Part shown: piece after piece, positions 5,261 through 38,646 of the stretch
Layout: each line of letters opens with the position of its first letter
How positions within the stretch are numbered: the first letter of the stretch is position 1
Assembly: GCA_013791955.1 (NCBI GenBank)
Contig: VMSW01000007.1
Coordinates: 744,001-808,000, forward strand
DNA length: 64,000 bases
Direction of reading: 5' to 3'
From: Propionicimonas sp.
GTDB lineage: Bacteria; Actinomycetota; Actinomycetes; Propionibacteriales; Propionibacteriaceae
Made by a program: the position numbers and the translations under genes
Notes under the pieces: model-generated
Database searches by the model: none
Told to the model about the DNA's origin: nothing
What the model saw: the letters and a program-made list of their open reading frames with translations, nothing else

Positions 5261-8200
5261 ATGTACCTGAAGAGCCTGACGATGCGCGGTTTCAAGTCGT
5301 TCGCTTCCAGCACCACGATGGTCTTCGAGCCTGGCGTCACCTGCGTGGTCGGTCCGAACGGTTCGGGCAAGTCGAACGTGGTTGATGCGCTGGCCTGGGT
5401 AATGGGCGAGCAGGGTGCTAAGACCCTGCGTGGCGGCAAGATGGAAGATGTTATCTTCGCTGGCACGTCTGGACGGGCACCGTTGGGTCGAGCCGAAGTC
5501 GAACTGAAGATCGACAATTCCGACGGGGCATTGCCCATCGACTACACCGAAGTGACGATCAGCCGGACGATGTTCCGCAGCGGCGGCTCGGAGTATGCGA
5601 TCAACGGCACACCAGCCCGCCTGCTGGACGTCCAGGAGTTGCTCAGCGATTCCGGTATCGGCCGGGAGATGCACGTCATTGTTGGCCAGGGCCAACTCGA
5701 CTCGATCTTGCAGGCCACTCCGGAAATCCGCCGGGGCTTCATCGAAGAAGCCGCTGGTGTACTCAAACACCGCAAGCGCAAGGAGAAGGCCGAGCGCAAG
5801 CTCGAGTCGACCGCAGCCAATCTGAACCGGCTGAACGACCTGCTAGGCGAGATCCGCCGCCAACTGAAGCCGCTGGGCCGACAGGCCGAGGTGGCCCGGA
5901 AGGCCGCAGTGGTGCAGGCCGAGGTGCGCGACGCCAGGGCCAGGCTGCTGGCAGAAGATCTGGCCACGGCCAGTCAGGCTTTGGAATCGGATCTGGCCGC
6001 CGAGGCTGAGCTCAAGCAGCGACGGCTGCGGCTGGAGGAGCAGCTGACAGAGGCTCGCCAGGCTGAGCAGTTGGCAGAGGCCGCGGCCCAACAGGCGCTG
6101 CCGCGGCTGGCCGCGGCGCAGGAGACCTGGTATTCGTTGGCGGGCCTGGCCGAGCGCGTCTCGAGCACGGCGACGATCGCGGCCGAACGACTGCGCAATG
6201 CTGAGGCAATCGGCACCGAAGAGCGACCGGGTCGCGACCCGGAGGCAATCGAGCGCGAGGCGGCCGAAGTGGTGGCCGCCGAGGCCGAACTCGGCCACGA
6301 GATTGAGTCGCTCGCGGCGGCATTGACCGCGGCCACCGAGGCGCGGACGGTCGCCGAGGCTGCCCACACCGAAGCCGAACAGCAGTACGCGGCCCAGCAG
6401 CGCGCGATCGCCGATCGACGCGAGGGCCTGGCCCGGCTGATTGGTGAGGTAAATACGCTTCGCAGCCGGGTTGAGGCCGCCGCGTCCGAAATCGATCGGC
6501 TCGCCGAGGCTCGGGCCCAAGCCGATGAGCGAGGTGCGCAGGCCAAGCACCGGTTCGCCTCCTTGGAGACCCGGCTGGCCGGGCTGAGCGCTGGCGAGTC
6601 TGGTTTGGATGCCGCTTACGAGGTTGCTGCTGAAGCCGAGGCCAACGCCGAAGCCGAACGCAATCGGCTGACTGATGCCCTCCGGGCCGCCGCTGCCGAG
6701 CGGGGGGCGCTGGCTGCGCGCGCCGAAGCTCTGGCTCTGGGGCTCAACCAGCGCGACGGCGGCGCCGCCTTGCTGGCCGCCGGCAACCGGCTGGACGGCC
6801 TGCTGGGCTCGGTGGCGGCACTGATCAAGGTCAATCCCGGCGATCAGGTGGCGATTGCTGCTGCACTTGGTGCGGCCGCGGACGCGGTAGCGGTGACCGG
6901 GGTGGATGCCGCGGTCCGGGCCTTTGACCACCTGAAGACCGAGGATCTCGGCCGCGCGGGCCTGCTATTGGGCGGCGGGCCGAGTGAGGACCCGGCCAGT
7001 TGGCCGAAACTGCCGACTACAGCCCGCTGGGCCATCGACACGGTGGAGTGCGAAGAGCGCATGCGTCCGCCACTCCAACGTTTGCTTTTCAAGGTCGCGC
7101 TAGTGGCCGACCTAGCCACCGCCCGCGAGCTGGTGACCAAGCTGCCCGAAGTGAGCGCGGTTACCGCCGACGGCGACCTGCTGAGCTCCTGGTTTGCCGC
7201 AGGCGGTTCGGCTGGGCAGCCATCAGTGATCGAGGTTCAGGCCGCCCTCGACGAAGCCAACGCCAAGCTCGCCGCTGCCCAAACTGATGCTGAGCGGCTG
7301 CGCTTCGCCGTGGCTAAGGCCGAAGACGAGTTGGCAGCCGCCAAACAACGCGCGGAGGCTGCCCTAGCGCGGCTCCACGAATCCGACGCCGAGCATGGAG
7401 CCCTCGCCGAAGAGGCCGCCGAACTCAATCAGACCGTGCGAGCCGCGCTTGCTGAGGCGGGTCGGTTGAGCGAAGCAGCCCAGAATGCCGCCACGGCCAG
7501 AGAGCAGGGGTTGGCCAATCTCTCCGACCTGGAACGCCGCCTGGAACTGGCTGAGGCTCAAACCGAGTTGAGCGAGGCGGACCCGACCCAACGCGACCAC
7601 AGCTCTGATGTCGCTCGCGCAGCTCGGGCCGCCGAGATGGAGGCCCGGTTGGGCCTGCGTACGGTCGAAGAGCGGGCTAGGGCGTTGGCTGGCAGAGCTG
7701 AAAGCCTCACCCGAGCCGCCCAGGCTGAGCGGGACGCGCGAGCCAAGGCCGCAGCCAGACGGGAACAGTTGCGCCGCGAGGCGGAAACCGCCGCTTCGGT
7801 ACAGCTGGCCGCAACCTGGCTTGCCGGGCAGATCGGCAACTCCCGGGTGTTGGCCGAGGCCGAGCGCACTGCTGCCCAACAGGCCCGTGCCGCCGCCGAG
7901 GGCGAGTTGTCGGCTGCCCGTCAGCGCGGCCGCGAGCTGGCCAAGCAGTTCGAGGGCATGGTGGATACCGTCCACCGCGACGAGCTCGCCCGGGCTCAGC
8001 AGCAGATGAAGATCGAGGCGTTGGCCGAAAAGGCGCTGGCCGAGCTCGGCTTGGACGCGGCCGTGCTGTTGGCGGACTACGGGCCGCAGGTGCCCGTCCC
8101 GCTGCTGCTAGGACCCGACGGCGCACCGTTGGGCGTCGACGATGAGCCGCCAGAGCCGGTGCCTTACGTCCGTGCTGAGCAGGAGAAGCGGCTGCGCGCT

Positions 8201-8821
8201 GCCGAGCGGGACTTGGCGGTGCTGGGCAAGGTGAATCCGCTGGCGCTGGAAGAGTTCGAGGCAATGAGTGAGCGCCACGCCTTCCTGGCCGAGCAGTTGG
8301 TCGACCTGCGCAAGACCCGTGAAGACCTGATGGAGATCATCAGCGACGTCGACACCCGCGTGCAGGAGGTTTTTGCGGCCGCGTATGCCGACGTTGAGGC
8401 AGCTTTTGCCGACTCTTTCTCCCGGCTGTTCCCCGGCGGTGAGGGACGTCTGGTGCTCACCGAACCAGGGGAGTGGCTGACTACCGGAGTCGATGTCGAG
8501 GCCCGTCCCGCCGGTAAGAAGGTCAAGCGGCTTTCGTTGCTCTCTGGCGGTGAGCGCTCCCTGGTGGCGGTGGCCTTCCTGGTGGCCTTATTCAAGGCCA
8601 GGCCCAGCCCCTTCTACATCCTGGATGAGGTTGAGGCTGCCCTCGACGATGTGAACCTCGGCCGACTTCTGGAGATCTACCAGGAATTGCGCAACGACAG
8701 CCAGTTGCTGGTTATCACTCACCAGAAGCGGACGATGGAGATTGCCGACGCGCTTTATGGCGTGACGATGCGCGCAGACGGTGTCACTACGGTGATCAGC
8801 CAGCGGCTGAGGGAAAGCTGA
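5261..8821 (+). CDS. smc: Chromosome segregation protein SMC
   Basis: SMC is the ATPase of the bacterial condensin complex (SMC-ScpAB), which compacts and separates chromosomes. At 1186 residues it has the normal size. The Walker A motif GPNGSGKS is at residues 31-38, followed by the Q-loop region. Two long Ala/Glu/Arg-rich coiled-coil arms flank a glycine-rich hinge at roughly residues 500-680. The ABC signature LSGGE is near residue 1094 and the Walker B LDEVEAALDD near 1120. scpA and scpB are not in the window. Confidence 0.97.
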   Translation: MYLKSLTMRGFKSFASSTTMVFEPGVTCVVGPNGSGKSNVVDALAWVMGEQGAKTLRGGKMEDVIFAGTSGRAPLGRAEVELKIDNSDGALPIDYTEVTISRTMFRSGGSEYAINGTPARLLDVQELLSDSGIGREMHVIVGQGQLDSILQATPEIRRGFIEEAAGVLKHRKRKEKAERKLESTAANLNRLNDLLGEIRRQLKPLGRQAEVARKAAVVQAEVRDARARLLAEDLATASQALESDLAAEAELKQRRLRLEEQLTEARQAEQLAEAAAQQALPRLAAAQETWYSLAGLAERVSSTATIAAERLRNAEAIGTEERPGRDPEAIEREAAEVVAAEAELGHEIESLAAALTAATEARTVAEAAHTEAEQQYAAQQRAIADRREGLARLIGEVNTLRSRVEAAASEIDRLAEARAQADERGAQAKHRFASLETRLAGLSAGESGLDAAYEVAAEAEANAEAERNRLTDALRAAAAERGALAARAEALALGLNQRDGGAALLAAGNRLDGLLGSVAALIKVNPGDQVAIAAALGAAADAVAVTGVDAAVRAFDHLKTEDLGRAGLLLGGGPSEDPASWPKLPTTARWAIDTVECEERMRPPLQRLLFKVALVADLATARELVTKLPEVSAVTADGDLLSSWFAAGGSAGQPSVIEVQAALDEANAKLAAAQTDAERLRFAVAKAEDELAAAKQRAEAALARLHESDAEHGALAEEAAELNQTVRAALAEAGRLSEAAQNAATAREQGLANLSDLERRLELAEAQTELSEADPTQRDHSSDVARAARAAEMEARLGLRTVEERARALAGRAESLTRAAQAERDARAKAAARREQLRREAETAASVQLAATWLAGQIGNSRVLAEAERTAAQQARAAAEGELSAARQRGRELAKQFEGMVDTVHRDELARAQQQMKIEALAEKALAELGLDAAVLLADYGPQVPVPLLLGPDGAPLGVDDEPPEPVPYVRAEQEKRLRAAERDLAVLGKVNPLALEEFEAMSERHAFLAEQLVDLRKTREDLMEIISDVDTRVQEVFAAAYADVEAAFADSFSRLFPGGEGRLVLTEPGEWLTTGVDVEARPAGKKVKRLSLLSGGERSLVAVAFLVALFKARPSPFYILDEVEAALDDVNLGRLLEIYQELRNDSQLLVITHQKRTMEIADALYGVTMRADGVTTVISQRLRES

Positions 8822-25881: not shown

Positions 25882-27413
25882 TGCGGCAGGCGAAGTCGTT
25901 CTCGGTCGCCCTGGTGGGGGTTGAAGGAGCCGTGATCGAGGTGGAGGCGGCCATCAGTTCTGGTCTGCCCCGGACCACGATGGTCGGGCTGCCGGACGCT
26001 GCGCTGAAGGAAGCTAGAGATCGCTGCCGAGCGGCGATGAGCGCGGTGGGTCCGGGCTGGCCAACAGGTCCAGTCACGATCAACCTCTCCCCGGCGACTC
26101 TGCCCAAGGCCGGTTCTCACTACGACCTGAGCATTGCCGCTGCCGTGGCCGCAGCAAAGGGAACCTTTGATCCGCGGGCGCTTGAGGGCGTGGTGCTGTT
26201 CGGGGAGCTTGGCTTGGGCGGCCGAGTCAGAGGAGTGCGCGGGCTGCTGCCCGCACTGCTGACGGCGGTGGCGAAGGGCTTCACCCGGGCTGTCGTGCCT
26301 GCTGAGCAGCTTCGGGAGGCCACGCTGATTACGGGGCTGAGTGTCTACGGGGTGGGCGATCTCGCCGAGCTGTTCGACGTGCTGGCCGGTGGGGGCGGTG
26401 CTGCGATGCCGGCGCCAGGGGCAGCGGAGGTTGATGATCGACGCCGTCCCGATCTCGCCGATGTAGCTGGCCAAGAGGAAGCCAAGTGGGCATTGGAGGT
26501 GGCTGCGGCCGGTCGGCACCATCTCTACCTGCATGGGCCACCCGGAGTTGGCAAGACGCTGTTGGCTGAGCGCCTGGCCTCGATCCTGCCCGACCTAACC
26601 GAAGCCGAGTCGTTGGAGGTCTCGGCCATCCATTCGCTGTGCGGAATCAATCTGGATGACGGGCTGGTGCGCCGCCCTCCCTATGCCGACCCGCATCACT
26701 CGGCTTCCCTGGCGAGTCTGGTTGGCGGCGGCGCGCGAGTCGCGATGCCTGGGGCAATCTCCCGGGCCCACCGGGGGGTGCTCTTTCTGGACGAGGCGCC
26801 GGAGTTCCCACCCCGGGCCATGGACGCGCTGCGGGTGCCCCTGGAGTCTGGGCGGGTCGTGCTGGCGCGTTCGGAGTCCACGGCGGTGTATCCGGCGAGG
26901 TTCCAGCTCGTGATGGCAGCCAATCCCTGCCCGTGTGGGATGGCCGGGACGCCGGGGGCCGATTGCCGGTGTCCACCCATGGCGGTGCGGCGCTACGCGT
27001 CCCGGGTATCGGGACCGGTCTTGGACCGGGTGGATATTCACCAGCGGCTGCGGCCAGTGCGCAGCGCGTTGCTGTCGTCCGCCGACTCAGTGGGGGAGTC
27101 AAGCGCTGCGGTCGCCGACCGGGTGGCGGCGGCCCGGGATCGGCAGCGGCATCGGTTGAGCCCACTCGGTTGGAGCACCAATGCTGAAGTGCCAGGGCCA
27201 GTACTACGAAAACACCTGCCGGCACCTGTCGGCGCCGAGCTGATCACCCGGGCACTGGTGCGGGGGCAACTCTCGGCCCGTGGCGTTGACAAGGTACTGC
27301 GGCTGGCCTGGACAGTGGCGGACCTGGCTGGGGCGCCGTCACCGACTGTTGATCATCTACACACCGCGTTGGCGATGCGGCGCGGAGAAGACGGAGCGGG
27401 GGGATCACATTGA
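25881..27413 (+). CDS. comM: YifB/ComM family Mg-chelatase-like AAA+ ATPase
   Basis: ComM is an AAA+ helicase that promotes branch migration during natural transformation. The 510-residue protein has an N-terminal Lon-type substrate domain, Walker A GPPGVGKT (residues 219-226), a Walker B FLDEAPEF, and a sensor-like NPCPCG motif. The start overlaps yraN and the stop overlaps dprA (TTGA). Proteins of this family were formerly annotated as competence Mg-chelatases, and no chelatase activity is implied. Confidence 0.92.
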   Translation: MRQAKSFSVALVGVEGAVIEVEAAISSGLPRTTMVGLPDAALKEARDRCRAAMSAVGPGWPTGPVTINLSPATLPKAGSHYDLSIAAAVAAAKGTFDPRALEGVVLFGELGLGGRVRGVRGLLPALLTAVAKGFTRAVVPAEQLREATLITGLSVYGVGDLAELFDVLAGGGGAAMPAPGAAEVDDRRRPDLADVAGQEEAKWALEVAAAGRHHLYLHGPPGVGKTLLAERLASILPDLTEAESLEVSAIHSLCGINLDDGLVRRPPYADPHHSASLASLVGGGARVAMPGAISRAHRGVLFLDEAPEFPPRAMDALRVPLESGRVVLARSESTAVYPARFQLVMAANPCPCGMAGTPGADCRCPPMAVRRYASRVSGPVLDRVDIHQRLRPVRSALLSSADSVGESSAAVADRVAAARDRQRHRLSPLGWSTNAEVPGPVLRKHLPAPVGAELITRALVRGQLSARGVDKVLRLAWTVADLAGAPSPTVDHLHTALAMRRGEDGAGGSH

Positions 27414-28546
27414 CCGACGAACGGACGGCGCGGATGTGCCTGGCAGCGGTGGTGGAGCCCGGGCACCGAGCGGTCGGCGAGGCGGTGGCCGAGTTTGGCG
27501 CCGAAGCGGTTTGGGCCGGTTTGGCCGCCGCGGGTGGGAGCAGCCCGCTAGAACGGCGCGCCCAGACCATCGTCCCCGAAGACCTCGTCGCCCACACCCG
27601 GGTAGCGGGGCAGCGCTTCGTCATCCCCGGCGATGAGGAGTGGCCCGCAGGGATGTCCGGATTGGCCGAGTGTGAACCGGTGCAACAGTTGGGTGGTGGG
27701 CCGCTGGGGCTTTGGGTGTCCGGTGCCGGGCGGCTGGGCGAACTCACCGCAAAGGCGGTGGCCATTGTGGGGTCGAGGGCCTCAACTGCCTACGGTGATC
27801 GAGTGGCTGCCGACTTCGCTGCCGAGCTCTCCGAAGCTGGCCGAACCGTGGTTTCCGGCGGCGCCTATGGCATCGATGCGGCCGCGCATCGTGGCGCGCT
27901 GGCGGGCCGCACCCCGACGGTGGCGGTCCAGGCCGGCGGATTGGATCAGCCTTACCCGAGTGGGCACGCCAAGTTGTTCTCCCGAATCGCCGAAGCCGGT
28001 GTGGTGGTCGGTGAGTTGGCGCCAGGAGAGCACCCGACCCGGGTGCGCTTTCTGGCCAGAAACCGGCTGATTGCTGCGATGTCTGAAGGGACGGTGATGG
28101 TGGAGGCGGCGGCCCGTTCGGGGGCGCGCAATACCGTCACCTGGGCCAATGCCTTGCGGCGACTGGTGATGGCAGTGCCGGGTCCGGTCACCAGTGCCAA
28201 CTCGGTCACGCCACATCGGTTGATCCGTGAGGCGGAGGCGACCCTGGTGAGTTCCCCGGCAGAGGTCTTGGAGTTGCTCTCGCCGCTTGGCGGGGACTTC
28301 CGGCAGCCGCGTGGTGAACATCGCCCCACCGACGATTTGGCCGCTGATGAGCTAAGGCTGTTCGAGGCAATCCCTGCTCGCGGGGCGCTGAGCGCGGGGG
28401 AGCTGGCGTTGAAGGCTGGATTGGCCATGCCAACTTGCCTGGCCCTGCTCAGCAGGCTCGCCGAGCAGGGCTTCATCAGCCAGGACGCGGAGTCGAACTG
28501 GCGCCTGCCTGCGCGACTTCGCAAGGACCGGCGAGCCTCGGAGTAG
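27410..28546 (+). CDS. dprA: DNA processing protein DprA
   Basis: DprA loads RecA onto incoming single-stranded DNA during transformation. The 378-residue protein contains a Rossmann-fold core with AIVGSRASTAYGDRVA, GGAYGIDAAAHRGAL and RFLARNRLIAAMS, followed by a C-terminal winged-helix-like DprA_C domain ending in FISQDAESNWRL. The TTG start overlaps the comM stop. Together with comM and yraN it forms a competence-related group, although no comEA/comEC genes are in the window. Confidence 0.93.
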   Translation: MTDERTARMCLAAVVEPGHRAVGEAVAEFGAEAVWAGLAAAGGSSPLERRAQTIVPEDLVAHTRVAGQRFVIPGDEEWPAGMSGLAECEPVQQLGGGPLGLWVSGAGRLGELTAKAVAIVGSRASTAYGDRVAADFAAELSEAGRTVVSGGAYGIDAAAHRGALAGRTPTVAVQAGGLDQPYPSGHAKLFSRIAEAGVVVGELAPGEHPTRVRFLARNRLIAAMSEGTVMVEAAARSGARNTVTWANALRRLVMAVPGPVTSANSVTPHRLIREAEATLVSSPAEVLELLSPLGGDFRQPRGEHRPTDDLAADELRLFEAIPARGALSAGELALKAGLAMPTCLALLSRLAEQGFISQDAESNWRLPARLRKDRRASE

Positions 28547-28990
28547 GGGTGTAACCCCAACGGGGACTTTTCGGGGGCCCAGGATCGATCTAGCCTCTTT
28601 GTATCAGGGGGGAGCAGCCGCTACTCGGCGAACCGTAACTGGTGGGCAGCGACTGACCTGGATACCCATCGCAACGTCATGGGGTGGACGAGAGCCATGC
28701 TCGTCCACCCCATGTCCTGTTTGGTGGGCGGAAGGAAGCAAGTTTCCCAAGGACCGCCGTGGCCAGGGATGCCTCGTGGCGCTGATCGACCCAGTGGCTC
28801 TGCTCCCGAGATCGGGAGGCCAGGAAATCCACAACGACGAAGCAACTTAATTCGACGTATCGCCTAGTCGTGCGCGGTGTGAAAGTAGCCGATGCCGTTT
28901 GTCAAAATGGTCCTTGGCTATGCCCCCGGGGGTGTAGCCTGATGGTGGTTGAGCAAAGCAGCTGAACCAGATCAAGGAGAGTCAGAGGCA
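28547..28990 (+). promoter_or_regulatory. 444-bp gap upstream of the sulfur-carrier/Qmo-like operon
   Basis: No convincing gene was found here. The gap begins with small G/C hairpins immediately after dprA (GGGGT/ACCCC around GTA) that could end the dprA transcript. It contains the long hairpin at 28678-28714, listed separately, and a 10-bp GC palindrome CCCCCGGGGG at 28923-28932. AAGGAGA at 28974-28980 is the ribosome binding site of the next gene. Small open frames near 28600-28850 lack ribosome binding sites. The operon promoter must lie here or upstream, but I cannot locate it with confidence. Confidence 0.5.
28678..28714 (+). terminator. 15-bp perfect inverted repeat, possible terminator or RNA hairpin
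   Basis: CATGGGGTGGACGAG pairs perfectly with CTCGTCCACCCCATG around the seven-base loop AGCCATG, then TCCTGTTT follows. It lies about 130 bases after dprA and about 275 bases before the TusA-like gene. It may be the dprA terminator, the 3' end of a small RNA, or part of the leader of the sulfur operon. Confidence 0.6.
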
Positions 28991-29251
28991 ATGTCTGCGT
29001 CCGTGGAAGAACTCAAGGCCATCGCGTCCCCTGTCATCGTTGACGCTAGAGGCGTCTCCTGCCCCGGCCCCATCCTGGCGGCCAAGAAGCAGATCAGTGG
29101 CGTCACTGTCGGCAATGTCATGGAGGTGCTGGCGACTGATTCCGGCACCCTGAAAGATATTCCCGCCTGGTGCCGCAAGATGGGTCACGATTTCCTCGGC
29201 TCTTTTGAAGAGGCTGGTGCGATCCACCTGTTCTTGCGCAAAGCGAAGTAA
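28991..29251 (+). CDS. TusA-family sulfur carrier protein
   Basis: The 86-residue protein has the TusA/SirA/YeeD signature: VIVDARGVSCPGPILAAKK, with the persulfide-carrying Cys at residue 24 (C-P-G-P). Such proteins accept sulfane sulfur and hand it to tRNA thiolation, molybdopterin or dissimilatory sulfur pathways. ATG at 28991 follows AAGGAGA. An upstream TTG at 28949 would bypass that site. It is the first gene of a seven-gene operon containing DsrE- and Qmo-like proteins, so a redox or dissimilatory sulfur role is more likely than tRNA modification. That role is inference from context. Confidence 0.88.
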   Translation: MSASVEELKAIASPVIVDARGVSCPGPILAAKKQISGVTVGNVMEVLATDSGTLKDIPAWCRKMGHDFLGSFEEAGAIHLFLRKAK

Positions 29252-29254
29252 GCC

Positions 29255-29683
29255 ATGTCGCCAGAGATCCACCCCGACACGAACTCACCAAGGATCCTGG
29301 TCTTCTCCACGATCAACATCTCCGACCCCGGCATCGACCTGGCTGGGAGTCGCCATCTGGAGTACCCGGCGACGGTGCAGACCATGCCTGTTCCTTGCAG
29401 CAGTGGGCTCAAGCCCGCTTGGCTGATACATGCCCTTGAGAAGGGGTTTGACGGTGTCTTCGTCGCCTCAGATGGCGAAGAGTGCGCCTACCTTCCGGAT
29501 TGTGCGGAGCGAACCTCGAGGATCATCGCCGAAGCCCAGGCGATCATGACTGCTCGCGGGATCTCCCCGGACCGGCTCAAGATGGCCGCGGTGTGTTCGG
29601 TGTGCGCCGAACCCTTCGCCAACTACATGCGTGAATTCTCGGAGAAGCTAAAGCAGGTCCGCGCGGCTTCTTCCGTAGCGTGA
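29255..29683 (+). CDS. MvhD/FrhD-like small subunit (hydrogenase delta-type) with altered cysteines
   Basis: The 142-residue protein matches the MvhD/FrhD (PF02662) pattern in the block DLAGSRHLEYP, MPVPCSSG, ALEKGFDGVFVASDGEECAYL and GISPDRLKMAAVCSVCAEPF. In archaeal hydrogenase-Hdr complexes MvhD is the [2Fe-2S] electron bridge to HdrA. In some QmoB proteins it is a fused domain. Here the N-terminal CxxC pair of the classic family is missing (STINISDPG instead). C48, C77, C83, C114 and C117 remain. The gene starts three bases after the TusA-like gene. The family call is by motif, so it needs an HMM test. Confidence 0.72.
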   Translation: MSPEIHPDTNSPRILVFSTINISDPGIDLAGSRHLEYPATVQTMPVPCSSGLKPAWLIHALEKGFDGVFVASDGEECAYLPDCAERTSRIIAEAQAIMTARGISPDRLKMAAVCSVCAEPFANYMREFSEKLKQVRAASSVA

Positions 29684-29719
29684 ACTATCTCTAAAAACAA
29701 ACAGAAAGCGGTGACAAAG

Positions 29720-30199
29720 ATGTCGAAGAAGACCATCATTGTCTTCAGCGGAGACTACGATCGCGTGATGGCTGCATTCATCATTGCGAACGGTGCCGCA
29801 GCAATGGACGACGAAGTAACTATGTTCTTCACCTTCTGGGGCCTTTCGGCTCTGCGCAAGCAGCCTAATCCGGGAGCCCCGGCTGCGGCAAAGAGTGGCT
29901 TGCAGAAGGTGTTTTCCGGAATGCTGCCAAAGCATCCTGAGAAGCTCGGCCTGTCTAAATTCAACTTCGCTGGCGCTGGCCGCATGATGATGAAGAAGGT
30001 CATGAAGTCCGAGAACGTAATGACGGTTTCCGAATTGCTGGAGACCGCCCAGGAGCAAGGCATCAAGATGATCGCCTGCACCATGTCGATGGACGTCCTG
30101 GGCATCGGCAAGGAAGAGCTGATCGATGGGATCGAATACGCCGGCGTCGCCACCTATCTGGGTGAAGCGGACGAGGCGAACGTCAACCTCTTCATCTAG
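29720..30199 (+). CDS. DsrE/DsrF/DsrH-like (DsrE2-type) protein
   Basis: The 159-residue protein resembles the DsrE2 family of sulfur-transfer proteins. It has an N-terminal KKTIIVFSGDYDRVMAAFI strand-helix unit, a TMFFTFWGL segment, and the conserved Cys at residue 120 in MIACTMSMDVLGI. DsrE-type proteins exchange persulfide sulfur with TusA. ATG at 29720 begins the conserved region. A GTG at 29711 is an alternative and neither has a strong ribosome binding site. Co-occurrence with a TusA-like gene in one operon supports a sulfur-relay function. Confidence 0.82.
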   Translation: MSKKTIIVFSGDYDRVMAAFIIANGAAAMDDEVTMFFTFWGLSALRKQPNPGAPAAAKSGLQKVFSGMLPKHPEKLGLSKFNFAGAGRMMMKKVMKSENVMTVSELLETAQEQGIKMIACTMSMDVLGIGKEELIDGIEYAGVATYLGEADEANVNLFI

Positions 30200-30239
30200 C
30201 TAGAGCGGGAAGTCAGCGGTGACAAGCAAGGAGACTGCG

Positions 30240-33002
30240 ATGGACTACGACGTCCTGGTGTTGGGCAGCGGTATCGGGGGCATGGAGTCCTCGATCAAAT
30301 TGGCTGACATGGGCTACCAGGTCCTGTTGGTGGAGAAGGAGGCCAGTGTTGGCGGTCGGATGATCTTGTTGAGCAAGGTGTTCCCGACCCTGGACTGCGC
30401 TTCCTGTATCTCGGGGCCGAAAATGTCAACGACCATTAATCACCCCAACATCAAGACGCTCGCCTACAGCGAGATCGATCACATCAGCAGAAATACGCAT
30501 GGTGGATTCCAGGTGACGGTTCGCGAGAAGGCGAAGTTTGTCGACTGGGCGGCCTGCACCGGCTGCGATGTGTGTCAGAAGGAGTGCACGGTCGCAGTCC
30601 CTGATCAGTTCAACGCTGAACTAGCCCCGCGTCGAGCTGCCTACATCGCTTTTCCCCAAGCCGTACCGAAGAAGGCGATTCTCGATCGCTCTGGAACATC
30701 GCCCTGTATCGCGGCTTGCCCGGCGGGTATCAAGGCACATGGCTACGTCTCGCTGACGCGCACCGGCAAGTACGAAGAGGCTTTTCAGCTGAATCTTGAT
30801 GCGACGCCCCTGGTGGGCACGCTGGGACGGGCCTGCTACGCACCCTGCGAAAACGGCTGCACCCGCAGCCAGGTCGAGGGCACTCTGCCCATCCGGATGA
30901 TCAAGCGCTACGTCGCTGACGAGCACTACGCGACTCACGAAGGTCCGGGCGTCGAGGTGTCGCCACCGACCGGCAAGTCGGTCGCGGTCGTCGGTTCCGG
31001 CCCCGCCGGGCTAACTGCCGCTTGGCAACTGGCCCGTCAAGGCCACCGCGTCACCATCCACGAGGCTCAGGCAAGCCCCGGCGGGTACGCCCGCCACGGC
31101 ATTCCGAGCTTCCGGTTGCCCAAGGATGTTGTCGAGGCCGATATCGCCAACCTGACGGCAATCGGAGTTGAGATCATCTGCAACTCCCCGGTCGCTGACC
31201 TTCAGGCGCTGAAGGATTCCGGCTACGACGCGGTCGTTATTGCCACCGGAGCTCATCGCGAAGCCGCGTTGGACGCCGCCGGTGTTGACGCAGCCGGGGT
31301 GGTGTCAGGGCTTTCCTACTTGAAGGACTCCGCGGCTGAGGTTGGTCCGGATCTCACCGGAAAGCGAGTAGTGGTGGTCGGCGGAGACGTGGTCGCCATG
31401 AACGCCGCCCGGACGGCATTGCGCCAAGGTGCTACCTCGGCCACCGTAGTTGCCGAGGCTGGCAAGCCCGGTGCGCTGCCCTGCAACGAGATCGAGTACA
31501 CCGAAGCTGCCGCCGAAGGGGTGGAGTTCGTCTTCTCCACCAGCGTCGCTGAACTCCGCACCGCTGCCAGCGGTGAGGTGACCGCGGTGCGCTGCGTTCC
31601 ATTCAGCGCACCGAGCACTTCGGCTGACGCATCCGAGGATGCCGAGGCTGGCGAGACTGTCCAGGCTGCTGCCGCTCCGGCGACAGCGTCCACGGCGGCC
31701 AGCGAACTGGTGGCCGATCTGGTGATCACCTGCCTGGGCCTTGACGTGGACGAGTCGTTGTTCGTCGAGCTAGCTGGCGTTGGCAACAAGTCCCGCATTC
31801 TGGCCAACCGGCGCTCGCTGCAAACCAAGGCCAAGTGGCTGTTCGCAGCAGGGGATGTGGCCAGTGGCCTCTCGACGATCACCAGGGCCGTTGGCTCGGG
31901 ACGGCGAGCTGCCCACATGGTCGATCGCTTCTTGAAGGGCGAGTCGCTGGACGGCTTCGAGCTGGACAGCAAGCTCTCCACGACCAAGCACCGCGATGTG
32001 TTGGCCAGGCATTCATCGATTACCCATCGCGATCCGGTCACTGGTCAGGTGCGGCTCAACCAACAGCCGCGGGACTTCGCCGAAATCGAAGCTGGGCTCA
32101 CCGAGGAAGAGGCCCGCTCTGGGGCCGGTTCCTGCCTGGACTGCGGGATCTGTTCGGAATGCCAGGAGTGCGCCAAGCAGTGTCCGGCATTCGCCATCGA
32201 CATGACCCAACGCGACAAGGTGTCTGAGGTTGAAGTGGGTGCGGTGGTGGTTTCCACCGGGCACAAGCTGTTCGCCGCTGACCTCAAGCCGGAGTACGGC
32301 TTCGGCAAGTTCCCCAACGTCATCACCGCGATGCAGATGGACCGCCTGCTGGCGCCCACTCGTCCGTTCAACACAGTGCTGAGACCCGGTGACGGCAAGG
32401 TCCCCGACCGCATCGCCTACATCTCCTGCACTGGTTCGCGAGACAAGACCGTGGGCAATCCGCTGTGCTCGAAGTTCTGCTGCATGTATTCGATCAAGCA
32501 GAACCAGCTGATCATGGGCGCGCTGCCACTGGCCGACGTCACCATGCACTACATGGACATGCGGGCGGCCGGTAAGCGCTACGAGGAGTTCTACACCCAG
32601 GCTCGTGACATGGGGGCGCAGTACATCAAGGGCCGCGTGGCCAAGATCACCGAAGAAGAAAACGGTGACCTGCTGGTTCGCTATGAGGACATCGAGAACG
32701 GTGGTGGCATCGTCGAAGCGAGCTACGACCTGGTGGTCCTGGCGGTTGGCATCCAACCCAACCGTGACGTGGAGAACCTGTTCACTGATGCGCCGCTGGG
32801 CCTGGACGAGTACTACTACGTGGCCGAACCCAGTGCTGAGCTGAGTCCCGGGCAGACCAATATCCCTGGCGTTTTCGTGGCAGGTACGGCCGCAGGCGCC
32901 AAGGACATCGTGGACACCATCCTGCACGCCGGCGCAGCCGTGGCCCAGGTGGCAGCCCACCTCGAACACCAACACTTCGCTGAGCAGGAGGCCCTGGTAT
33001 GA
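30240..33002 (+). CDS. HdrA/QmoA-like flavoprotein with inserted GltD-like NAD(P)H-oxidoreductase module
   Basis: This 920-residue protein is a three-part fusion. Residues 1-125 are the HdrA start: FAD motif LGSGIGGMESS, the HdrA CxxC in LDCASC (C53, C56) and a ferredoxin-like C106-C109-C112-C116 set. Residues about 130-565 look like a complete GltD/NfnB-type domain: SPCIAACP and YAPCENGC, FAD motif VVGSGPAGLTAAW, and a second Rossmann motif GGDVVAMNAART. From about residue 632 HdrA resumes with CLDCGICSECQECAKQCP, SCTGSRD and CSKFCCMYSIKQ. The start ATG follows AAGGAG by six bases. The second Rossmann motif lacks one expected Gly, so NAD(P) binding is uncertain. It overlaps the next gene by four bases. 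Confidence 0.88.
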   Translation: MDYDVLVLGSGIGGMESSIKLADMGYQVLLVEKEASVGGRMILLSKVFPTLDCASCISGPKMSTTINHPNIKTLAYSEIDHISRNTHGGFQVTVREKAKFVDWAACTGCDVCQKECTVAVPDQFNAELAPRRAAYIAFPQAVPKKAILDRSGTSPCIAACPAGIKAHGYVSLTRTGKYEEAFQLNLDATPLVGTLGRACYAPCENGCTRSQVEGTLPIRMIKRYVADEHYATHEGPGVEVSPPTGKSVAVVGSGPAGLTAAWQLARQGHRVTIHEAQASPGGYARHGIPSFRLPKDVVEADIANLTAIGVEIICNSPVADLQALKDSGYDAVVIATGAHREAALDAAGVDAAGVVSGLSYLKDSAAEVGPDLTGKRVVVVGGDVVAMNAARTALRQGATSATVVAEAGKPGALPCNEIEYTEAAAEGVEFVFSTSVAELRTAASGEVTAVRCVPFSAPSTSADASEDAEAGETVQAAAAPATASTAASELVADLVITCLGLDVDESLFVELAGVGNKSRILANRRSLQTKAKWLFAAGDVASGLSTITRAVGSGRRAAHMVDRFLKGESLDGFELDSKLSTTKHRDVLARHSSITHRDPVTGQVRLNQQPRDFAEIEAGLTEEEARSGAGSCLDCGICSECQECAKQCPAFAIDMTQRDKVSEVEVGAVVVSTGHKLFAADLKPEYGFGKFPNVITAMQMDRLLAPTRPFNTVLRPGDGKVPDRIAYISCTGSRDKTVGNPLCSKFCCMYSIKQNQLIMGALPLADVTMHYMDMRAAGKRYEEFYTQARDMGAQYIKGRVAKITEEENGDLLVRYEDIENGGGIVEASYDLVVLAVGIQPNRDVENLFTDAPLGLDEYYYVAEPSAELSPGQTNIPGVFVAGTAAGAKDIVDTILHAGAAVAQVAAHLEHQHFAEQEALV

Positions 33003-34789
33003 GCGAGAACGAAGCCACCCCTGTGGGCAAGGTCGCACCAGAAGACCGCCGGATCGGCGTCTACATCTGCCACTGTGGCGGCAACATCTCCGACTACGTA
33101 GATGTGGAAGCCGTCCGGGAAGCATTGGCTGACGAGCCCGGCGTGGTCGTTTCCACCACGGAGCTGTTCGCCTGTTCAGACGGCACCCAGCACGACATGA
33201 TCGATGCGATCAAGGAGAAGCAGCTCGACGGGCTGGTGGTCGCCTCCTGTTCACCGAAGCTGCATCAGGTGACCTTCCGCAATGTTGCCGCCCGGGCGGG
33301 GATGAACCCCTACACCTACTCCCAGGTGAACGTGCGTGAGCAGGGCTCCTGGGCGCACCAGCACGACAAAGCTGGCGCTACCGAGAAGGTGATTGGCCTG
33401 GTGCGCTCCAGTGTGGCCAAGACGAGATTGTCTGATGCTCTGGAGCCGCTGCGGTTCGACACCGTGCCGCGAGCACTGGTCGTTGGCGGCGGGATCGCCG
33501 GGTTGCGGGCCGCGATTGGCCTGGCCGAGATCGGCCTCGAAGCAGTGGTGGTCGAGAAGGCCCCCGAAGTTGGGGGTTGGGTTGGCCGCCATGGCGAGAC
33601 CTTCCCTTCGAATGCTGCCGGACGCGACCAGATCGCCTCGTTGACCGAGCAGATCAAGCAGCGCCGCGACATCACCGTCTACACCAACGCTGAGCTGACC
33701 GGAAAGTCAGGCACCTTCGGCAACTACAGCGCCGAAATCACGCTGCATCGCGAAGGCGGCGACAAGACCCTGAGCGTCGACGTCGGCTCGATCATCGTCG
33801 CGACAGGCTTCGATTCCTACGCCCCCGACGATGGCGAGTTCGGCTACGGCATCGACGGAGTGGTCACCCTCCCGCAGTTCAAAGAACTGGTGGACGCCTC
33901 CGAGGTCGGCAAACTCACCTACAACGGGCGCCCGGTGCGCTCGGTCGGCTATGTCTACTGCGTCGGGTCCAGGCAAGAGGCAGGTGGCAACGAGTACTGC
34001 TCGAAGTTCTGCTGCACCGCCGCGATTCACGCCTCAGTGCTGGTGAACAAGCTGGATCCGGGCATTCGGCAGTTCCACCTGTATCGCGACGTGCGGGCCT
34101 ACGGGCGCAACGAGTTGCTTTACAACGAAACGCGCGATGCCGGCTCGGTCTTCCTGAAATTCGCCGACGATGCCCCGCCAACAGTGGCGAAGCTACCGAG
34201 CGGCGGTCTGGGACTCACCATCACCGATCTGCTTACCGATAGCCGCGAAGTGACGATTCCGGTCGATCTGGTGGTGTTGGTGACGGGGATGGTGCCGAGG
34301 CAGAACAAGTCCCTGGTGGATCTGCTGAAACTTCCGTTGGGTACCGATGGCTTCTTCAACGAGATCCATCCCAAGCTGCGCCCGGTGGAGACGGTGGTGG
34401 ACGGCGTGATGATCGCCGGCTGCTGCCAGAGTCCGCGCACCGCTGGGGAAAGCGTTGCAGCTGGCCTGGCCGCAGTGGCCCAAAGCGCAGCCCTGCTGAA
34501 AAAGGGCTACGCCGAACTCGAGCCGCTGGTGGCCAGGATCGATCCGGAGAAATGCACCGGAAGCGGGGACTGCCTCACCGCCTGTCCCTACGACTCGATC
34601 ACCAGTATCGAATGGGACGGTCGCCAGATCGCCTCAGTTGACCCAGCGACCTGCAAGGGCTGCGGCGGTTGCATCCCGGTTTGCGGGGCTGATGCCATCG
34701 ACCTGCTCGGCTACACCGACGCCCAGATGCGGGCTGCGATCGAAGAGATGTTTGAGGCCAGTGTGCCAGTGAAGGAGCCGGTGGCATGA
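32999..34789 (+). CDS. HdrA/QmoB-like flavoprotein, FAD and C-terminal ferredoxin domains
   Basis: The 596-residue protein starts like archaeal HdrA (VYICHCGGNISDYVDVEAV, VVASCSPKLHQVTFR). It then has an FAD domain with VVGGGIAGLRAA, but the Cys pair usually found after the FAD motif is replaced by FPSNAAGRD. SKFCCTAAIHAS follows. The C-terminus has two ferredoxin motifs: C519-TGSGD-C525-LTA-C529, where the second Cys is Ser (S522), and C552-C555-C558-C562. QmoB-like subunits pass electrons between HdrA/QmoA and the membrane subunit. The start overlaps the upstream stop (ATGA), and the stop overlaps the next start. Confidence 0.85.
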   Translation: MSENEATPVGKVAPEDRRIGVYICHCGGNISDYVDVEAVREALADEPGVVVSTTELFACSDGTQHDMIDAIKEKQLDGLVVASCSPKLHQVTFRNVAARAGMNPYTYSQVNVREQGSWAHQHDKAGATEKVIGLVRSSVAKTRLSDALEPLRFDTVPRALVVGGGIAGLRAAIGLAEIGLEAVVVEKAPEVGGWVGRHGETFPSNAAGRDQIASLTEQIKQRRDITVYTNAELTGKSGTFGNYSAEITLHREGGDKTLSVDVGSIIVATGFDSYAPDDGEFGYGIDGVVTLPQFKELVDASEVGKLTYNGRPVRSVGYVYCVGSRQEAGGNEYCSKFCCTAAIHASVLVNKLDPGIRQFHLYRDVRAYGRNELLYNETRDAGSVFLKFADDAPPTVAKLPSGGLGLTITDLLTDSREVTIPVDLVVLVTGMVPRQNKSLVDLLKLPLGTDGFFNEIHPKLRPVETVVDGVMIAGCCQSPRTAGESVAAGLAAVAQSAALLKKGYAELEPLVARIDPEKCTGSGDCLTACPYDSITSIEWDGRQIASVDPATCKGCGGCIPVCGADAIDLLGYTDAQMRAAIEEMFEASVPVKEPVA

Positions 34790-35031
34790 ACCAGACGCTG
34801 CGTGACCCGCGTGAAGTGATGCGCGAGGAGATGCTGATGCATGCACCGATCCTCGCCGCCGTTGCCGAAGAGCCGTTGACCATTCCGCAGATTGCCGAAC
34901 GGATCGGGCATCCCGCTCCCGAAGTGGTCTATTGGGTGATGGGGATGCGGCGCTATGGCTTCCTCTCAGAAAGCGGTGACGCCGATGACGACGGCTTCTT
35001 CGCCTACGCCGCTACCGGAAGGCAGGTCTAA
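34786..35031 (+). CDS. Small putative winged-helix protein inside the Qmo-like operon
   Basis: This 81-residue protein was not assigned to a family. Residues about 30-62 (LTIPQIAERIGHPAPEVVYWVMGMRRYGFL) resemble a helix-turn-helix/winged-helix unit, and the tail is acidic. It overlaps the QmoB-like gene by four bases and sits two bases before the QmoC-like gene, so it is co-translated. It could be a small assembly factor or a DNA-binding regulator of the operon, but sequence alone does not decide this. Confidence 0.65.
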   Translation: MNQTLRDPREVMREEMLMHAPILAAVAEEPLTIPQIAERIGHPAPEVVYWVMGMRRYGFLSESGDADDDGFFAYAATGRQV

Positions 35032-35033
35032 CG

Positions 35034-36209
35034 ATGGCCACCTTGGTGAACCCGAATCTGATTACCGACCTACAGAAGTTCGGCGCCGCTGACGTCAACG
35101 CCTGCTTCTCCTGTGGCAACTGCACCGCGATCTGCCCGCTGGCCGACAACGATGCCACCTTCCCGCGGCGCTTCATTCGGCTGGCCCAGGTTGGCTTGAC
35201 TGACGACCTGGTTACCAGCAAGGAGTTGTGGACCTGCTACCAATGCGGCATGTGCACCTCCCGGTGCCCGCAAGAAGCTGATCCGGCTGAGTTCATGGCT
35301 ACTGCTCGGCGCTACGCCATCGCCAAGCTCGACCGGACCGGCATCGCTCGAGCGATGTACACCAGCCCGGTGGCTGCGGCCGTGATTTCCCTGGTTGGAC
35401 TGGTGATCTTTGGCGGCTTCTTCGCGTCAGTGAAGGCATCTGCTGAGGAAAGGCTCGTCTTCGGCGTCCCGTATGAGTGGATTCACTTGGTGGGACTCGT
35501 AGTCATGATCCTGGTCGTGCTGATCGCCGTGTTCAACCTGGCGATGATGGCGCGGGCTACTGCAAAGCGAGACGAGGTCAGCGCCAAGTCGCTGTTCGGA
35601 TCCAGGAAGGCCTGGGGCAACACCCTGCGAGCCGTGTGGTACTCGGTCGGAGTTGAGTCGCTGGGCCAGAAGCGCTACCGCGAGGATTGCGAGGACGACG
35701 ACCCCAAGGAGCCGCTGTACCGGCGCCGTTGGCTGATTCACTTCTTGACCGTGTGGGGTTTCCTGGCGCTGTTTGCGGCGACGTTGATCCACTACGGAAG
35801 TGACATCATCGGCTTGCAGGGGGCCGCTGTGGGTGTGGTTGCCTTGGTGGCTCGGCTCGTGGGCACGGTCGGCGGGGTAGCGATGATGTACGGCGTCACC
35901 TGGTTCATGATCAACCGCAAGCAGAAGGTGAGCGCTGCCGCGCAGCACAGTGCGCCCTCGGATTGGCTGTTCCTGTGGATGCTATGGATCACTGGCCTGA
36001 CCGGCTTCATCATCGAGGTCTCGCTGTACCTGCCGCAGGATCATCCGCAGCCGTGGGCGTATGTGTTGTTCCTGGTGCATGTGGCGATCGCGATGGAGTT
36101 GGTGTTGTTCCTGCCGTTCACCAAGTTCGCTCATGTGATGTACCGACCGGTGGCGCTGTTCTTCTACGCACTCGCTAAGCAGCGTTCTGCGGAGTTGCAG
36201 TCGGTCTGA
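35034..36209 (+). CDS. QmoC-like membrane subunit: HdrC ferredoxin fused to cytochrome b-type domain
   Basis: The 391-residue protein joins an HdrC-like N-terminus with two [4Fe-4S] motifs (C24-C27-C30-C34 and C68-C71-C74-C78, each ending in CP) to about six transmembrane segments of a NarI/HdrE-type cytochrome b domain. This layout is that of QmoC, the quinone-interacting subunit of the Qmo complex. Histidines at WIHLVGL, IHFLTVWG, LIHYG and LVHVAIAM are heme-ligand candidates. It is the last gene of the operon, two bases after the small winged-helix gene, and a terminator follows. A DsrMK-type subunit is the nearest alternative. Confidence 0.83.
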   Translation: MATLVNPNLITDLQKFGAADVNACFSCGNCTAICPLADNDATFPRRFIRLAQVGLTDDLVTSKELWTCYQCGMCTSRCPQEADPAEFMATARRYAIAKLDRTGIARAMYTSPVAAAVISLVGLVIFGGFFASVKASAEERLVFGVPYEWIHLVGLVVMILVVLIAVFNLAMMARATAKRDEVSAKSLFGSRKAWGNTLRAVWYSVGVESLGQKRYREDCEDDDPKEPLYRRRWLIHFLTVWGFLALFAATLIHYGSDIIGLQGAAVGVVALVARLVGTVGGVAMMYGVTWFMINRKQKVSAAAQHSAPSDWLFLWMLWITGLTGFIIEVSLYLPQDHPQPWAYVLFLVHVAIAMELVLFLPFTKFAHVMYRPVALFFYALAKQRSAELQSV

Positions 36210-36267: not shown

Positions 36268-38646
36268 TCACCGGGTGATGTAGGCCGCCAGGTACTTTGC
36301 GGTGAGGGTCTGGTCGGCCGCGACCAGGTCGGACGGCGTCCCAGCGAAGACGATCCGGCCACCATCGTGGCCGGCTCCCGGGCCGAGATCGATGATCCAG
36401 TCGGCATGCGCCATGACGGCTTGATGGTGCTCGATGGCGATCACCGACTTGCCGGCGTCAACCAGCCGATCCAGCAGGCCCAGCAACTGCTCGACGTCGG
36501 CCAGATGGAGGCCGACGGTGGGCTCATCCAGCACGTAGATGCCGCCTGCAGCGGCCATTTGGGTGGCCAGCTTCAGCCGCTGCCGCTCGCCGCCAGACAG
36601 TGTCGTCAGCGGTTGGCCGAGAGTCAGGTAACCCAATCCGACGTCGGTGAGGCGATCAAGGATCGCCTTCGCCGGCGTCACCTTCGCGGTGCTGGAGTTG
36701 AAGAAGTCGGCGGCCTCAGCGACCGGCATCGCCAGCACCTCGGCGATATTGCGTCCGGCCAGGTGGTATTCCAGCACTGCGGCCTGGAATCGCTTGCCCT
36801 CGCATTCGGCGCAGGTGGTGGCAACCCCAGCCATGATGGCCAGGTCGGTGTAGATCACCCCGGCCCCGTTGCAGGCGGGGCAGGCGCCTTCGGAGTTGGC
36901 GCTGAACAATGCCGGTTTGACCCCGTTGGCCTTGGCAAAGGCCTTCCGAACTGGTTCGAGCAGCCCGGTGTAGGTGGCGGGATTGCTTCTTCGGGAACCG
37001 CGGATGGCTCCCTGATCGATGAGCACGACATCGTCCAGCGGTGCCACCGAGCTGTCAATGAGCGAGCTCTTGCCCGATCCGGCCACCCCGGTGAGTACGA
37101 CCAGCACGCCCAGCGGGATGTCCACGTCGACGTTGCGCAGGTTGTGACTGGTGGCCCCACGAACCGCAAGCGCACCGGTGGGGGTCCGAACCGCGTCCTT
37201 CAGCTTGGCGCGGTCTTCGAAATGGCGCCCAGTGATGGTGTTGCTGGCTCGTAGTGCGTCCACGCTGCCTTCAAAACAGACCTCGCCACCAGACACTCCG
37301 GCGCCAGGGCCCAAGTCGACCACATGGTCTGCGATGGCGATGATTTCGGGCTTGTGCTCGATGACCAACACCGTGTTGCCCTTGTCGCGCAGGCGCAACA
37401 GCAGGGCATTCAGCCGTTGGATGTCTGCCGGATGCAGCCCGATGCTCGGCTCGTCGAAGACGTAGGTGATGTCGGTGAGGGCTGAGCCGAGATGCCGGAC
37501 CATCTTCGCCCGCTGCGCCTCCCCACCCGAAAGAGTGCCGGAGGAGCGATCCAAGCTCAGGTAGCCCAGGCCAATCTCGGTGAAGGAGTCCAGCAGGGCG
37601 AGCAACTTGGCCAGCAGGGGGGCCACCGAATCGTCGGTGATGCCGCGAACCCAATCGGCCAGATCGCCGATCTGCATCGCGCAGGCCTCAGCGATGCTGA
37701 TGCCGTCCACCAGTGAGGAGCGAGCGCCGTCGTTGAGACGGGTACCGGCACAATCGGGGCACGTGGTGAAAGTGGCCGCCCGCTCCACGAAGGCGCGGAT
37801 ATGGGGCTGCAACGAATCGATGTCCTTGCTCAGGATCGACTTCTGCACGCGGGGCACCAGGCCTTCATAGGTGACGTTGATGCCCTCGACTTTGATCCGG
37901 CGGGCTTGGCCGTAAAGGAACTCGTGCAGCTGACGTTCGGTGAACTCCGAGATCGGCGAGTCGCCGGGCACCACTGCGGCGAAGATGCGCCCGTACCAGC
38001 CGTCCGCGCTGAAGCCGGGCACCTTGATGGCACCCTCGAACAGCGTCTTCGATTCGTCGTAGAGCTGAGTCAGGTCGAGGTCGTTGATGCTGCCCAGGCC
38101 CTCGCAGCGCGGGCACATGCCCCCGATAGCGGTGAAGGCCGCCTTCTGTTTCACCGGCTTTCCGGGGCCGCGCTCGATGGTGACCGCACCGGCACCATGC
38201 ACGGTGGCGACGTTGAAACTGAACGCCTGGGGCGAGCCAAGATGCGGCTGGCCGAGGCGGCTGAACAAGATGCGCAGCATGGCGTTGGCATCGGTAACGG
38301 TGCCAAGCGTCGAGCGCGGATTGCCACCGATTCGTTCCTGGTCAACGATGATCGCCGTGGTTAGCCCTTCGAGGAGGTCCACCTCTGGGCGATCCAGTGT
38401 TGGCATGAAGCCCTGAATGAACGAGGAGTAGGTCTCGTTGATCAGTCGCTGCGATTCGGCAGCGATCGTGCCGAAGACCAGGGAGCTCTTGCCGGACCCA
38501 GAAACCCCGGTGAAGACCGTCAGGCGTCGCTTAGGTAGCTCCACGGTGATGTTCTTGAGGTTGTTCTCCCGGGCACCGTGGACGCGAATCACTTCGTGGA
38601 GGTCAGCACTGGCAGCCTGGGACGTCCTCGTCCGGTCTTCACCCAT
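36268..38646 (-). CDS. UvrA-like ABC ATPase (UvrA2/drug-resistance type, no UvrB-binding domain)
   Basis: This 792-residue protein has two ABC modules: Walker A GVSGSGKSS and GVAGSGKSS, and signatures SGGEAQR and SGGERQR. Zinc-type cysteine pairs CPRCEGLG, CPDCAGTR, CPACNGAG and CAECEGKR are also present. It is about 150 residues shorter than classical UvrA and lacks the UvrB-binding segment after the first Walker A. Proteins of this class (UvrA2/DrrC-like) are linked to resistance to DNA-binding compounds rather than to core excision repair. It is a single gene on the reverse strand, divergent from katA. Confidence 0.9.
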   Translation of the reverse strand: MGEDRTRTSQAASADLHEVIRVHGARENNLKNITVELPKRRLTVFTGVSGSGKSSLVFGTIAAESQRLINETYSSFIQGFMPTLDRPEVDLLEGLTTAIIVDQERIGGNPRSTLGTVTDANAMLRILFSRLGQPHLGSPQAFSFNVATVHGAGAVTIERGPGKPVKQKAAFTAIGGMCPRCEGLGSINDLDLTQLYDESKTLFEGAIKVPGFSADGWYGRIFAAVVPGDSPISEFTERQLHEFLYGQARRIKVEGINVTYEGLVPRVQKSILSKDIDSLQPHIRAFVERAATFTTCPDCAGTRLNDGARSSLVDGISIAEACAMQIGDLADWVRGITDDSVAPLLAKLLALLDSFTEIGLGYLSLDRSSGTLSGGEAQRAKMVRHLGSALTDITYVFDEPSIGLHPADIQRLNALLLRLRDKGNTVLVIEHKPEIIAIADHVVDLGPGAGVSGGEVCFEGSVDALRASNTITGRHFEDRAKLKDAVRTPTGALAVRGATSHNLRNVDVDIPLGVLVVLTGVAGSGKSSLIDSSVAPLDDVVLIDQGAIRGSRRSNPATYTGLLEPVRKAFAKANGVKPALFSANSEGACPACNGAGVIYTDLAIMAGVATTCAECEGKRFQAAVLEYHLAGRNIAEVLAMPVAEAADFFNSSTAKVTPAKAILDRLTDVGLGYLTLGQPLTTLSGGERQRLKLATQMAAAGGIYVLDEPTVGLHLADVEQLLGLLDRLVDAGKSVIAIEHHQAVMAHADWIIDLGPGAGHDGGRIVFAGTPSDLVAADQTLTAKYLAAYITR

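Follow-up and report, generated by a model that had tools for sequence, protein, structure and literature searches.

The locus described here raises the question of what a set of sulfur-carrier genes adjoining genes for a QmoABC-like electron-transfer complex does in Propionicimonas sp., and with which partner such a complex could exchange electrons. The window, the whole stretch of 64,000 nucleotides that was analysed (744001-808000 of the contig in a 3.10 Mb genome), contains seven intact genes on the + strand between 28949 and 36209, with spacing between neighbours ranging from -4 to +27 nt:

28949..29251, + strand, TusA-like sulfur carrier (PF01206; start TTG 28949 or ATG 28991)
29255..29683, + strand, MvhD/FlpD-like [2Fe-2S] electron-transfer protein, in its own gene (PF02662)
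29711..30199, + strand, DsrE2-like sulfur-carrier protein (PF13686, NF047629)
30219..33002, + strand, HdrA with an inserted GltD domain, QmoA-like (HdrA2 and GltD-type models)
32999..34789, + strand, HdrA/QmoB-like subunit without MvhD domain, with a C-terminal ferredoxin domain (NF040770)
34786..35031, + strand, 81-aa winged-helix protein (predicted fold, linkage)
35034..36209, + strand, QmoC-like membrane subunit with HdrC-type Fe-S and di-haem-type membrane domains (NF038018)

The array of overlapping or abutting genes reported in the earlier note is present where it was placed, with all frames open. The tusA frame begins at TTG 28949, and the start at 28991 given in that note is an in-frame ATG of the same ORF. 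The gap is +3 nt between tusA and mvhD, +27 nt between mvhD and dsrE2, and +2 nt between the winged-helix gene and qmoC, and the hdrA-qmoB and qmoB-winged helix junctions each overlap by 4 nt (-4 nt). Between dsrE2 and hdrA the gap is +19 nt from GTG 30219 or +40 nt from the in-frame ATG 30240, the start favoured by the family alignment. Pfam and NCBIfam searches of each protein bear out the family assignments first made from visible motifs; since several scores are below the equivalog cut-offs, the matches are taken as family members rather than proven equivalents. Judged from these families, HdrA::GltD, the QmoB-like protein, the separate MvhD and the QmoC-like protein would amount to a whole QmoABC-like set with its own sulfur carriers.

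The TusA-like protein matches PF01206 (Pfam, E 1.1e-20) and shows the CPGP motif, with C38 invariant in 87/87 aligned rows. The DsrE2-like protein matches DrsE_2 PF13686 (Pfam, E 3.1e-60) and, at 91 bits, lies below the 210-bit cut-off of NF047629 (NCBIfam); its C123 is invariant in 76/76 rows, and the conserved cysteines of both proteins uphold their description as carriers. The MvhD/FlpD-like protein matches PF02662 (Pfam, E 3.1e-28), with five cysteines invariant in 89/89 rows. The QmoB-like protein has no PF02662 match in Pfam, the MvhD domain being a separate gene, and in Thermosulfurimonas MvhD is described as the C-terminal domain of QmoB (PMC4911364, in the part cited).

The fourth protein shows an HdrA2 match at both ends (447 bits, below the equivalog cut-off) and GltD-type models in the middle. 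Alignment to the HdrA chains 5odc and 9sfi places HdrA at approximately 6-157, GltD at 158-577 and HdrA again at 641-919. Both parts of the HdrA-GltD fusion previously proposed are thus found, the GltD domain lying inside HdrA; because GltD is inserted between the HdrA halves, the protein is considered QmoA-like. The family alignment contains 93 rows, of which 86 are distinct since seven contigs occur twice; one of 94 sources, without a full-length fusion, was dropped. The 20 cysteines checked, including the GltD Fe-S cysteines, are invariant in 93/93 rows, and so is K760, which corresponds to K409 of HdrA, the lysine proposed for bifurcation in the portion of PMC12054007 cited here. The same source describes type III HdrA, nine sequences from methane-metabolising archaea in which GltD is inserted in the same HdrA region and which are thought to react with NAD(P)H. 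In contrast to these, the module of the window is bacterial and tied to sulfur carriers, the position equivalent to E356 (D708) is D in 87/93 rows and E in 6/93, and most rows show GXGXXA (of the GGGNVA type) instead of GXGXXG, the motif of the window being degenerate.

At this second Rossmann motif of GltD the window shares GGDVVA with six relatives; locus L055 has GGDNLA and locus L115 GGCNVA, and an intact motif of the G-G-G-[N/D] type is found in 84/93 rows. The window GltD domain also lacks YRR, as do other lineages; since YRR is present in just 64/93 rows, its absence alone is no sign of decay. Four pairs from the window clade give a pN/pS of 0.41-0.57 for the NAD(P) subdomain, compared with 0.12-0.26 for six pairs from outside it; the window and L062, which are very close to each other, give 0.13. 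For the two HdrA parts the first four pairs give 0.065-0.105. Pairs inside one clade are non-independent, and some dS values are near or beyond saturation. In the window clade, the nucleotide-binding subdomain of GltD is under relaxed constraint and has a degenerate motif, with the Fe-S cysteines retained. The possible coupling to NAD(P)H raised in the earlier note is weakened for the window organism by the GGDVVA motif and the relaxed constraint, and appears doubtful in this lineage; the motifs make it plausible for most of the HdrA::GltD family. An AlphaFold2 model of HdrA::GltD from 11 sequences reached a pLDDT of 58.9 and was unusable for domain packing.

The fifth protein matches the HdrA2 model NF040770 (NCBIfam, 461 bits, below cut-off) and aligns to HdrA 5odc without an MvhD tail. 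The cysteines checked are invariant in 83 rows except at two positions: position 476, with C in 77 and S in 6 rows, and a ligand position of the C-terminal ferredoxin, with C in 66, S in 14 and other residues in 3 rows, where the window has S522 (34562-34569). The position equivalent to K409 is H in 76/83 rows. The last gene encodes the QmoC-type membrane subunit announced by the earlier note: it matches NF038018 (qmoC) at 185 bits, below the 300-bit cut-off, over nearly the full length (protein 9-377, model 5-360 of 360), and eight cysteines and H151, H236, H349 and H367, the latter predicted to bind haem, are invariant in 53/53 aligned rows. The electron outlet is QmoC in 47 scored rows and HdrC in 24, with two changes on the tree, a count that excludes L068 and L088, scored as HdrC and truncated at contig ends. 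The tree holds no reference Qmo sequences and leaves out 11/93 rows, seven of them from the same contigs as named loci and four close kin. In the two HdrC-type loci checked, L145 and L128, a gene encoding a CCG-domain protein adjoins that of HdrC.

The 81-aa sixth protein shows no family match in Pfam or NCBIfam. Its AlphaFold2 model (pLDDT 93.0, pTM 0.83) has the winged-helix order of elements, and the 50 Foldseek matches listed of 1809 (E up to 10) include MarR- and ArsR-type proteins, none reaching E 0.001. DsrD is a small winged-helix activator of DsrAB, similar to this protein in size, fold class and association with sulfur redox genes; however, it is absent from those 50 matches and from a sequence-profile search of the PDB, which gave weak unrelated matches (best E 0.042). 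A profile of the winged-helix protein finds exactly the same 17/147 family genomes as QmoC, with one copy each, and among the 80 best relatives' loci the gene is linked wherever the contig is long enough (69/69), which suggests a dedicated component of the cluster. Its most likely role is a structural or allosteric one, as a subunit. An ordinary repressor is a less likely reading given the strict linkage and the exact co-occurrence with QmoC.

Scanning genomes with the HdrA::GltD alignment as seed gave 381 relatives, of which the best 80 loci, picked by HdrA::GltD only, were examined. Among these best 80 of 381, counting loci with contig room, TusA is linked in 70/70, MvhD in 74/74, QmoB in 73/73 and either QmoC or HdrC in 65/65; the pattern may be looser in relatives further away. 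Of the same 80 loci, 31/49 have a strong DsrE2 match, upstream in 16 and downstream in 15, and 18 show none. Apart from single odd bins, the 80 records are labelled Actinomycetota, Chloroflexota and Bacillota. The cultured carriers are Cellulomonas sp. SG140 and Actinotalea lenta in Actinomycetota, and Desulfoscipio, Desulfofundulus, Desulfotruncus and Desulfallas in Bacillota; the Chloroflexota carriers are all metagenome bins, which may be mislabelled. The named relatives include Propionibacteriaceae metagenome genomes and Propionicimonas sp. D180. Since the same set recurs in distant genomes, it is not a product of chance, and the gene combination that seemed unfamiliar for an actinobacterium is not peculiar to a single one.

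Full-length HdrA::GltD is present in 14/29 same-genus genomes, the own genome not counted. QmoC matches, the own genome counted, occur in 17/147 family, 2/296 class and 14/296 phylum genomes, the last figure taking in other Hdr/Qmo loci. Thirteen other genomes of the phylum sample show QmoC matches, and seven were examined. The recurrence of the gene set in other actinobacteria, suggested as a check by the earlier note, was found: L049, L051 and L052 contain all seven genes in orders that differ from that of the window. L050 shows neither the GltD insertion nor a DsrE2 match. L053, L065 and L066, without TusA or winged-helix matches, were rejected as the same module and are other Hdr/Qmo loci. 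Viral spread was also considered, and no relative was found among viral contigs with the query used.

The usual partners of such complexes were sought in the genomes. No aprA or dsrA match was found in the own genome and none of 60 genomes is over the cut-off for either gene (0/60), with weak aprA matches in 17/60 and weak dsrA matches in 33/60; coupling to AprAB or DsrAB was rejected on this basis, so that the partner should be another one. The own genome shows no dsrA-family match even at E 0.001, and in many relatives there are weak matches, which are likely to be to assimilatory sulfite reductases; the window organism may lack assimilatory sulfite reduction. DsrC (PF04358) was rejected as partner, being absent in the own genome and present in 3/14 cluster-bearing and 5/15 cluster-free same-genus genomes. 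A PF04143 importer is absent in all 30 genus genomes searched, the own one included. DsrC does not track the cluster, and neither it nor the importer lends support to the sulfane-sulfur:menaquinone reading set out below.

Some relatives show sulfur-related neighbours in the flanks viewed, which are examples from loci chosen by eye and carry no enrichment statistic. Locus L072, of Propionicimonas sp. D180, contains divergent genes for a DsrE-like protein, DsrC and a type III SQR beside the cluster (5997-8678), and this SQR scores 594 bits with a selenoprotein-subtype model, over the cut-off of 525. Near the cluster, L095 encodes an SQR-like protein, L099 encodes TauE/SafE, and L131 encodes a protein that resembles CoA-disulfide reductase and has a rhodanese domain. 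A CsoR-type repressor gene is near the cluster in L063, L075 (two), L081, L082, L124, L137, L138, L139 and L145, and in several loci, L119 among them, ArsR-type repressor genes lie upstream of tusA. NCBIfam gives weak matches for these repressors, the CsoR-type proteins to RicR and the ArsR protein to BigR, below cut-off; the cysteine pattern of the CsoR-type protein in L075 presumably resembles that of the persulfide sensor CstR. The CsoR and ArsR queries found no match in the window, and no sulfur-related neighbour was seen beside its operon.

Several known systems share parts with this module. QmoABC, including the type II Qmo of PMC10504309 as outlined in the text cited, likewise shows two HdrA-type flavoproteins and a QmoC that combines an HdrC part with a di-haem membrane part, whereas in the window QmoA has the GltD insertion, QmoB lacks the MvhD end and MvhD is separate, TusA, the winged helix and usually DsrE2 are linked, and the genome has no match to aprA, the APS reductase partner. 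The sHdr sulfur-oxidising system also ties Hdr-like proteins to TusA and DsrE carriers (PMC4378227, PMC6776052, PMC6067878, in the parts cited); the published clusters contain HdrB with CCG domains and lipoate-binding proteins (PMC4378227, PMC6776052, same parts), but a CCG domain (HdrB-type, PF02754) is found in none of the seven operon proteins with Pfam, and no lipoate-binding protein was noticed in the flanks read by eye. The QmoAB-HdrBC arrangement of Gram-positive sulfate reducers, as summarized in PMC10504309, is approached by L145 and L128, which use HdrC and a CCG-domain protein. In Desulfotomaculum reducens, Dred_1325-30 includes HdrC, HdrB, MvhD and two HdrA proteins, one of which is large and has domains that putatively bind NADH; the list given in the cited part of PMC4759654 names a formate dehydrogenase but neither TusA nor DsrE nor a winged helix, the large HdrA being compared by description. 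The parts are therefore known (type II Qmo, type III HdrA, sHdr, QmoAB-HdrBC), and the assembled module has no description in the literature searched, which leaves subscription journals mostly outside, so that it may be in print elsewhere.

The probable role of the operon is electron transfer between sulfur bound to proteins and the respiratory pool of the membrane. That it is one redox module, a sulfane-sulfur:menaquinone oxidoreductase with TusA/DsrE2 carriers, is a reading to which we give an even chance, the complex, substrate, direction and quinone all being inferred. TusA and DsrE2 would hold cytoplasmic sulfane sulfur as a protein persulfide; the Qmo/Hdr core (HdrA::GltD as QmoA, the HdrA/QmoB-like protein and the separate MvhD) would trade electrons with the bound sulfur through flavins and Fe-S clusters, QmoC would link this core to menaquinone, and the winged-helix protein would be a subunit with a structural or allosteric role. 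Passing electrons from sulfane sulfur to menaquinone is downhill by standard potentials, and this direction was chosen for that reason: in the window organism the electrons would pass to menaquinone in an oxidation or detoxification, with sulfite perhaps as product. The families, the linkage in 80 loci, the conserved carrier cysteines, Fe-S ligands, QmoC histidines and K760 count for this reading, as do the missing aprA/dsrA and, in some relatives, the sulfur-related neighbours and CsoR/ArsR repressors. The lack of a CCG (HdrB-type) domain as a sulfur-acting site and of a strong DsrE2 match in 18/49 loci count against it. A purely oxidative role is further opposed by the same module in Desulfotruncus, Desulfofundulus, Desulfoscipio and Desulfallas, which are sulfate reducers. 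These Bacillota favour instead a reductive role, in which flavin-based confurcation at HdrA::GltD would draw on menaquinol together with a low-potential donor to reduce the sulfane sulfur of TusA/DsrE2 to sulfide, for respiration or redox disposal. The bifurcation-type lysine in every row and the nucleotide motif intact in 84/93 relatives agree with it, but the degenerate NAD(P)H port of the window clade removes one likely low-potential donor and sulfide formation from menaquinol alone is uphill; we regard this role as unlikely here.

In other bacteria TusA serves biosynthesis, and the SQR of selenoprotein subtype near the cluster in L072 would fit a relay in which TusA/DsrE2 supply biosynthetic pathways with sulfur (or selenium) while the redox complex only keeps the carriers reduced. 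Such a relay is improbable, since a cluster present in only 17/147 family genomes is dispensable and a membrane complex of seven genes that has QmoC as its outlet seems elaborate for it. A canonical QmoABC that works with APS reductase, whether in sulfate reduction or in the reverse direction, has the same subunit types and a nearly full-length qmoC match in its favour; it is largely refuted by the missing AprAB, and with dsrA also unmatched, QmoC below cut-off, GltD inserted in QmoA, and TusA and MvhD always linked among the best 80 of 381, its chance is very slight.

Returning to the sulfane-sulfur:menaquinone reading, a broader version can be advanced tentatively, at somewhat under an even chance for all its parts jointly: Actinomycetota, Chloroflexota and Bacillota would commonly have a module for sulfane-sulfur respiration that needs neither Dsr nor Apr nor lipoate proteins. 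Its core (TusA, MvhD, HdrA::GltD, HdrA/QmoB, winged helix and often DsrE2) would be fixed, its outlet swappable (membrane QmoC or soluble HdrC with a CCG protein), and its dedicated winged-helix subunit non-transcriptional in role. In the window lineage the NAD(P)H port would have been lost, so that what was an electron hub with three branches would now run only from sulfur to quinone. The function of type II Qmo in organisms without Apr or Dsr is left open in section 9 of PMC10504309, in the part cited; if the module of the window belongs to type II Qmo, TusA/DsrE2-bound sulfur as partner would be a testable answer. If this is true, heterotrophic actinobacteria and Chloroflexota would have an additional route from sulfur to quinone, one that Dsr/Apr marker genes miss, and the natural contrasts, NAD(P)H site intact or decayed and outlet QmoC or HdrC, would permit dissection of electron routing.

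Promoter and terminator scans of the region gave counts no higher than chance. The gap between dprA and tusA shows a perfect 15-pair inverted repeat with a 7-nt loop (28678-28714), possibly the dprA terminator, such sites being at chance level in the region. The operon is flanked by dprA (27410-28546) and a convergent UvrA-like gene (36268-38646, - strand), whose 792-aa product was named by eye from its sequence. Both adjoin the cluster also in L060, L061, L062 and L064. In the cluster-bearing same-genus genomes G015, G021, G026 and G028, dprA and the cluster are on separate contigs; with dprA beside the cluster in some genus genomes and on another contig in others, the site seems to be lineage-specific.
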